Source: Olsenella sp. (GTDB lineage: Bacteria; Actinomycetota; Coriobacteriia; Coriobacteriales; Atopobiaceae). From it: a stretch of DNA of 64,000 bases. Both the position numbers and the translations under genes were made by a program. How positions within the stretch are numbered: position 1 is the stretch's first letter; every line of letters begins with the position of its first letter. Positions 45,454-52,555 of this stretch are shown here, one piece after another. The notes beneath the pieces were generated by a model. It was not told the origin of the DNA. It worked only from the letters and a program-made list of their open reading frames with translations, and did no database searches. The stretch spans positions 62,001-126,000 of the forward strand of contig JALCMG010000004.1 of assembly GCA_022648325.1 (NCBI GenBank), in the 5' to 3' direction.

Positions 45454-46059
45454 CTACATGATGTCCTCCATGGAGATTCTCCCGTTGATTACCGCCCCCG
45501 TTAACCCACGCTCTCGGAGCATACGGGCGATGGCGAAAATGGGATCGGGGTCAACCCCCATATCAGCTGGTGGCTTTACGTTGATGCCGTAGACAACCTC
45601 AGAGAAGCGGGCCCTTGGGTCTATCTCGTCTTTGTCCCAGGTTTGTGCAATGTTGGAAAGGTAGTCCTTCCAGTTCACGTACGAACGCTGGGCAAGCCGG
45701 GGGTCATCATTCCAGGAAGACCGCACCTCATTCTCGTCAACCGGCACAAGATAGGCCTCGTAGTCATCATGCACGACGTCTGCCAGGCCATCTATGTAGA
45801 ACCACCTCCCGCTGCAGCATTGGTAGGGATGACGGTCTCCGCACAACACTACAAACAGGTCGCCCGTCCTCATGGGAATGCGAGGCAGGCAGAGCATGTC
45901 ACCAACTCGAGAAGGAAGCTCGGGACTCACGTCCCTCACCGCTCGCTCCACGCCATACATCCCAAAGAAGGGGTTGTTCCACTCGTCAAACGCCTTGCAA
46001 ATGCCCGCTGCCTCTGCCAAACAGCTGACCTTGACCAAACTCTCCTGGTACCCAGACAT
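45454..46059 (-). CDS. Unknown soluble protein (201 aa) downstream of a LexA-like box
   Basis: I do not recognise the family. There is no signal peptide or membrane helix. Aromatic and acidic residues dominate (FDEWNNPFFGMYGVERAV, WFYIDGLADVVHDDYEAYLV, YVNWKDYLSNIAQTWDKDEI). The start is the ATG at 46059 after a weak GGGGG. It begins about 150 bp beyond a perfect LexA-type palindrome, which suggests DNA-damage control. The Shango-type operon ends just upstream on the same strand, so read-through from it is also possible. Confidence 0.65.
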   Translation of the reverse strand: MSGYQESLVKVSCLAEAAGICKAFDEWNNPFFGMYGVERAVRDVSPELPSRVGDMLCLPRIPMRTGDLFVVLCGDRHPYQCCSGRWFYIDGLADVVHDDYEAYLVPVDENEVRSSWNDDPRLAQRSYVNWKDYLSNIAQTWDKDEIDPRARFSEVVYGINVKPPADMGVDPDPIFAIARMLRERGLTGAVINGRISMEDIM

Positions 46060-46208
46060 ATGATTGCCCCCAAACCGTAAACAATCGACAGGAGGCCGGC
46101 CGTCGCCGACCACGCCCGAGCGTTGATTGCAAGGAGGAGGCGCAATGCCACGTGCCAGTGGGGGCCTCCGGGCACCTCCACCCCTTGCAGGGACATCATA
46201 TCATAGAT

Positions 46209-51882: not shown

Positions 51883-52555
51883 GTTGCACCTCCCCGCACG
51901 GCACGGCTTTCGTAGCAATCCATTCTACTCCCATACGAATGGAATGAGAACATGTGTACGTAATTTTACACTCGGCGTATTGGCACGAATTGACGGTTGG
52001 TGGCAGTTTTTTGACACACCCCCATGTACAGGCAACGTTGGTTTTCGAATAACCGCAGGTACTTGATTTGCTATATATATGGCTGCATATAAAAGATGCG
52101 TCCAATATTGCCACCAACCGGAGTTTTGTGTTCTGGGGTTCACTCGCAGCCCGCCCGCAAGGCCTGGATACTGGGGCTTCCAAGTCAAACTCGGCTGTCT
52201 CACAGCCCCGCGGACGGCTCCCCATGGCTAGATTACCGGTTGGTGGCAGTTTTTATTTAATTCCTTATATATATGCCTAGACATGGCAATTCCCTGACCT
52301 GCTGTTAATCAGAATTTGAATTTACTCATACTTGAGGCACCCCAGAAAAACTGCCACCAACCGTCAATTTGCGCCACCGGGCAATCACTGGGATTCCTTC
52401 GGGGATTTTGGAGGCAAATCCTTAGCATCCAATGGCCATCAATCGGAGTTACCACCCCACGTTTGGGGCACAAGAGTCATCGAGGCGCGACGGGCAGCTA
52501 GAGGCGTGTCTCGGGCATCGTGAGCCATACGATTCTCGAGAAGTTGAGGTACGCG
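51883..52555. other. AT-rich intergenic region between sngA and the DUF389 gene
   Basis: No credible gene. It contains the nested inverted-repeat element at 51981-52376. A plausible sngA promoter (TAGAAT -10, weak TTCTCA -35, 17-bp spacer on the minus strand) lies at about 51925-51955. It is clearly lower in GC than its neighbours. Confidence 0.5.
51981..52376. repeat. ~396-bp nested inverted-repeat element (four GGTTGGTGGCA ends)
   Basis: The outer arms (51981-52011 and 52346-52376) are inverted 31-base copies with two mismatches, containing GACGGTTGGTGGCAGTTTTT. The inner ends (TTGCCACCAACCGG at 52108-52121 and CCGGTTGGTGGCAG at 52236-52249) are a second inverted pair. This yields two ~130-bp units in opposite orientation, each bounded by GGTTGGTGGCA and each holding a TATATATATG near the middle. 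No transposase is encoded. It may be a MITE-like insertion or paired regulatory hairpins. Confidence 0.75.

Follow-up and report, generated by a model that had tools for sequence, protein, structure and literature searches.

Short interspersed repeats of bacteria are usually regarded as decaying selfish DNA. Three described groups come closest to the element reported here. ERIC, also called IRU or RU-1, is a 127-bp intergenic imperfect palindrome present in many copies (PMC2229807; PMC2759123); the sections cited list it with terminal repeats of 7 bp, TA ends and duplication of the target site (PMC2229807). REPINs are extragenic and combine conserved, lineage-specific inverted ends with a spacer of fixed length; according to the cited part of their description, compensatory changes are common in both ends and spacers, and the critical features of the spacer are its length and its capacity to form a hairpin (PMC3116915). 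RUP and other MITEs are intergenic elements of about 100 bp with terminal inverted repeats, and RUP has its ends in common with an insertion sequence (PMC2229807, sections cited).

The modules described here resemble ERIC as 127-bp intergenic palindromic repeats with many copies. They differ from the ERIC features cited above in having arms of at least 17 bp, CGG tips and no duplication that could be seen, and none of 20,395 E. coli records matched a module at E values up to 1. With REPINs they share two inverted ends, a fixed spacer and lineage-specific ends. In contrast to the REPIN account cited, arm changes in the family shared by the genus (the genus family) are uncompensated and the interior carries conserved boxes and does not fold, genome G142 departing from this pattern with 24 paired and 20 single arm changes. 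Like RUP and other MITEs, the modules are short and intergenic with terminal inverted repeats, but unlike RUP, as far as the cited sections describe it, no insertion-sequence partner was seen in the regions examined and resident copies are selected in place. We file the modules with the short interspersed palindromic repeats, as members of neither ERIC nor REPIN. Open-licence papers yielded no account of miniature inverted repeats in Olsenella or of inverted-repeat MITEs in Collinsella, and no description of the family, which is weak evidence of absence.

The window, a 64-kb stretch of an Olsenella genome, contains two units of exactly 127 bp in opposite orientation, 116 bp apart: unit 1 on the reverse strand (51994-52120) and unit 2 on the forward strand (52237-52363). 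Their orientation was confirmed by the asymmetric interior, the best model hits being on the minus and plus strand, respectively. The arms lie at 51994-52010 (outer, right end) and 52104-52120 (inner, left end) in unit 1 and at 52237-52253 (inner, left end) and 52347-52363 (outer, right end) in unit 2, and the ends of both units are CGGTTGGTGGCA / TGCCACCAACCG. Beyond the right arm, each unit continues into a conserved extension, TGGCACGAATTGA for unit 1 (51981-51993, reverse strand) and TCAATTTGCGCCA for unit 2 (52364-52376, forward strand), with 12.4% substitutions versus 24.8% in flanks; the 116-bp spacer between the units (52121-52236) is not conserved. These data bear out the two opposed units of about 130 bp in the original prediction, as well as its 31-bp outer arms (51981-52011 and 52346-52376), which are 94% complementary. 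The AT-richness it ascribed to the whole block is real for the units (GC 0.45 and 0.41 in a neighbourhood of about 0.6-0.7) but confined to them, the spacer not being AT-rich. The block is located between divergent genes, about 98 bp from sngA and about 180 bp from a DUF389 gene, so that it does lie directly upstream of the defence operon, as had been noted, but no more so than of DUF389. A model search of the 64 kb retrieved no units besides this pair. Upstream of DUF389, a segment around CCCCACGTTTGGGGCACAAGA (52450-52475) is conserved in seven of the eight genomes, including those that lack the units.

The exact 12-mer at the unit ends was found 25 times in the 2.45-Mb genome of origin, mostly paired at exactly 127 bp, versus once for the reversed control, which is far beyond chance. 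With mirror hits removed, this genome has at least 22 units, and there are at least 129 in the examined regions of eight genomes of the genus, these regions being chosen among the matches listed, with weak matches left out. All eight genomes have units. The further copies exclude a local duplication, the outcome envisaged if none existed elsewhere. BLAST with one unit matched the genome of origin and all seven relatives from the genus, and none of 32 genomes from other genera. An end-pattern search of 84,980 species genomes permitted 112-142 bases and returned 21 stretches, all of 124 or 125, the named records all being Olsenella or Tractidigestivibacter. No copy was detected in the viral contigs, phages and plasmids searched. 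None of 119 units overlaps a predicted gene. The 74 distinct loci comprise 44 tandem, 18 divergent and 12 convergent gene arrangements, and the neighbours examined at other loci of the genome of origin are mostly housekeeping genes (names read from translations). In the single-contig genomes G111 and G135, unit positions were mixed, with no strand bias along the chromosome.

Each unit is directional. From the left, it consists of an arm (CGGTTGGTGGCAGTTTT), a left inner box (TTATATG in the genus family, AGTA in other families), a centre (CTGACCTGCGG), a right inner box (TACT), the right arm and an extension (TCAATTCGTGCCA). Copies are diverse, with a median identity of 0.65 over model columns, and nearly constant in length. 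A subclass of 13 units has differing left and right arms. Besides the genus family, a sequence-only model (R1) retrieved a second family from this genus and further families from genus g4, with other arms and a common core. The second genus family (L197-L204, L206) carries arms TTGCGGTTGACGGCC on the shared core; its core has four matches in the genome of origin, and a 139-bp match is identical in G006 and G001. Over 24 units, the 17 pairs of the arms are 93.9% complementary, and 10 pairs change on both sides. Covariation between the arms amounted to 58 cells compared with a shuffled mean of 15.8, and none of 500 shuffles reached 58. Since relatedness alone can lift sequences above such a shuffled background when no structure is present, the weightier control is that the signal was gone when slid by 1-3 columns.

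A model including the arm helix (R2) matched 99 of the 396 genomes in a sample of Coriobacteriia, from 20 of 153 genera and 4 families; because R2 scores a 17-bp arm helix, this count may include unrelated palindromes. Among 81 distinct sequences inspected, 24 of which had served for model building, the central hexamer was exact in 67 and both inner boxes were present in 57. The inner boxes are equidistant from both ends, lying exactly 33 from either model edge in 38 of the 57, the most symmetric pair being taken where several were possible. Total module length ranged from 109 to 133 in the sequences inspected, and each genome has its own fixed value, such as 127 in G314 and 109 in G142. Arms are constant within one lineage and change as a set between lineages, as a co-evolving sequence-specific reader would produce. 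Next to units in G314 (L369 1180-1400), arm-like sequences form tandem direct repeats of about 40 bp; together with the paired changes in G142, this indicates that some arm turnover may be mutational.

Among the regions examined, units occupy orthologous sites in up to seven of the eight genus genomes, in the same orientation; the modules are old and mostly vertically inherited at intergenic sites. Across 90 ortholog pairs (24 groups), the inner boxes changed least (9.2% substitutions), followed by the arms (9.9%), the centre (11.8%) and the right extension (12.4%), compared with 24.8% for flanks, 26.1% for the left extension and 26.2% for the remaining interior. Gap columns made up 0.3-2.2% inside units versus 13.4% in flanks. 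This comparison used the 119 of 129 units that passed score and flank filters, and excluding units below 75 bits introduces a bias to intact copies that concerns just 7 of the 129. Dead repeats are expected to drift evenly and to accumulate indels. The low motif change and the suppressed gaps indicate that motifs and spacing are kept by selection at each resident site.

Close pairs among the units examined were inverted in 23 of 23 cases, 12 with left ends and 11 with right ends facing and none in the same direction; some of these pairs are orthologous to one another, so that they represent fewer loci (18 flank pairs). Pairs with right ends facing have spacers of 73, 92-93, 103-106 or 114 bp, exactly 93 at five loci, and are phased at 10.5 bp (R 0.87, p ~0.0005; 10 loci, several from one genome). 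The window pair has its left ends facing, a kind for which phasing was not significant (8 loci, p ~0.07). Within the spacers of 93 bp, the central 61 bp are 16-41% shared; the 39-41% found at three G005 loci is a level at which block duplication is possible. At murB, two inverted units flank an adjacent gene of about 207 codons (L081 5183-6737, L115 3945-5473, L117 3419-4949). These units are identical to each other within the genome of origin and within G007 but 76% alike between the two genomes, a pattern suggestive of gene conversion. At the same site, the two units differ in G006, and G005 has one unit and lacks the 207-codon gene. A CrcB-like gene (name read from its translation) is enclosed by two inverted units in the genome of origin (L078 5309-6206) and is absent between the same two units in G005 (L251 2950-3296), showing that genes come or go between paired units.

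The operon beside the window pair is predicted from its sequence to be of Shango type, with adjacent genes for SngA, SngB and SngC (PADLOC 1.3e-54, 3.5e-191 and 1.4e-272); downstream of it, a 219-codon ORF (45454-46113) has no Pfam or PADLOC match. The pair might be a regulatory element of this operon or the footprint of its arrival: it lies only some 98 bp upstream of sngA and was there before these species split. However, the Shango genes occupy the locus in all eight genus genomes, next to DUF389 in seven (G005 retains only a 60-base DUF389 trace), whereas the full pair is present in four. Both units have orthologous copies in G001, G003 and G007, and G005 keeps the reverse unit alone; G002 has a fragment of one end, and none is visible in G004 and G006. 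The simplest history is an old pair that some species have since lost through deletion. The pair did not arrive with the operon, as an insertion footprint would imply, the operon persists without it, and their proximity is incidental. The neighbours examined at other loci of the genome of origin, moreover, are mostly housekeeping genes, and we consider a link to Shango very improbable. The proposed promoter hairpins tied to defence genes meet the same objection, and 12 of the 74 loci are convergent; by-eye comparison with sigma-70 spacing gave nothing convincing. Less remote, but still improbable, is a hairpin of RNA or single-stranded DNA whose closing stem is made by the arms. Strong arm covariation between families, the good folding of whole units owing to their arms and the copy-by-copy paired changes in G142 (24 paired, 20 single; 8 copies, one truncated copy left out) are in keeping with it. 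Against it, canonical units of the genus family show 39 single, uncompensated arm changes and 1 paired (39 of 65 family units counted, 13 belonging to the unlike-arm class and 13 dropped for shifted ends), and interiors fold no better than shuffles (mean z-score -0.36 to +0.11 over 65 units). These two observations argue against RNA, and the structured RNAs of the original prediction are not borne out. The 13 units with unlike arms and the use of convergent sites also count against a hairpin, as does the lack of any Rfam match of note, the models giving only tRNAs at gathering scores in the window and weak chance-level matches elsewhere. Searches for an inner helix by consensus folding and interior z-scores gave none, and mutual information returned the arms and a subfamily signal only. 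Comparison between families gave a weak signal of pairing for the inner boxes, with lowest p values of 0.0125 and 0.017 and no significance at the other positions.

Mobility is the closest rival to the docking sites proposed below, a minority possibility that we take seriously. The modules would be non-autonomous mobile elements, MITE- or REPIN-like, whose arms and inner boxes are recognised by a putative transposase; their geometry would then be that of a paired-end transposition complex, possibly kept for mobility rather than for any benefit to the host. The suggestion of a MITE-like insertion holds in that the modules are short, non-coding, intergenic and multi-copy with terminal inverted repeats, and their families have lineage-specific arms. 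Spread is suggested by a contrast within one genus, G314 having units in at least about 29 places and G324 three matches. Copies closely resembling the genus family occur singly in two genera of another family (G354 and G188; L329 3892-4020, L330 7080-7208), beside the same adhesin-like gene and with a transposase-like remnant nearby (names read from translations), which points to transfer. Against a MITE, no target-site duplication or partner transposase was seen at the sites and in the regions compared, and resident copies are under selection. Sites differing between relatives had ragged edges, with no target-site duplication or clean empty site at the few compared: at the cca-marR site, the genome of origin and G007 are set apart by one unit together with a spacer, and one unit of G314 sits in a block of about 550 bp that corresponds to about 24 bp in G324. 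The examined regions around units contained no transposase with the same ends, and no shared recombinase or transposase stood out among genes beside units, including the single copies of G354 and G188. Resident copies, moreover, retain motifs and spacing across species splits while the rest drifts. The same conservation, with the suppression of indels, contradicts the view that the units are remains of once-spreading neutral repeats now in decay, unless detection bias explains it, and only 7 of 129 units score below 75 bits. Deletion losses at the window locus fit such decay, which we nonetheless hold to be quite improbable.

We tentatively favour, at somewhat less than even confidence, a reading of the modules as fixed-geometry docking sites for a putative DNA-binding protein, not part of the defence operon. 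Two copies of one recognition arm stand inverted at the ends of 127 bp, enclosing a pair of inner boxes and a central box that is asymmetric, with a further box beyond the right end; a putative sequence-specific protein would recognise the arms and the boxes, folding each unit into a single complex, and inverted pairs would build a larger one. The docking reading draws on motif change of 9-12% versus about 25% elsewhere with indels suppressed, on the 39 single arm changes versus 1 paired and the unstructured interior, and on inner boxes equidistant from both ends at lengths from 109 to 133. It is also consistent with the inversion of all 23 close pairs, the phasing near 10.5 bp of right-ends-facing pairs (10 loci), and the absence of all 119 units from predicted genes while all three gene arrangements are used. 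Several observations speak against it. The paired and single arm changes of G142 (24 and 20) are as for a hairpin or inverted-repeat correction, and loss of the pair at the window locus in three of eight genomes makes it dispensable there. The phasing comes from 10 loci, several of them in a single genome, and does not reach significance for the window's kind of pair; detection omits decayed copies; and no reader protein was seen among the genes beside units.

The family probably dispersed long ago as a non-autonomous repeat and may be a formerly mobile element since co-opted; at their old sites, modules may now influence chromosome architecture or keep adjacent genes apart. The use of all three gene arrangements, tandem, divergent and convergent, makes a structural function, in looping or insulation, the most likely one in our view. 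A chromosome-organising or insulating system across the class Coriobacteriia, with a lineage-specific arm code, a co-evolving putative reader and helically phased inverted pairs, is conceivable, and we rate it as unlikely. In contrast to the view of such repeats as decaying, the modules show measurable selection on motif and spacing across species, close pairs that are always inverted and an arm code whose parts change together from lineage to lineage. Should a protein read them, they would represent an undescribed DNA-architecture or mobility system in Coriobacteriia, with tens of sites per genome.
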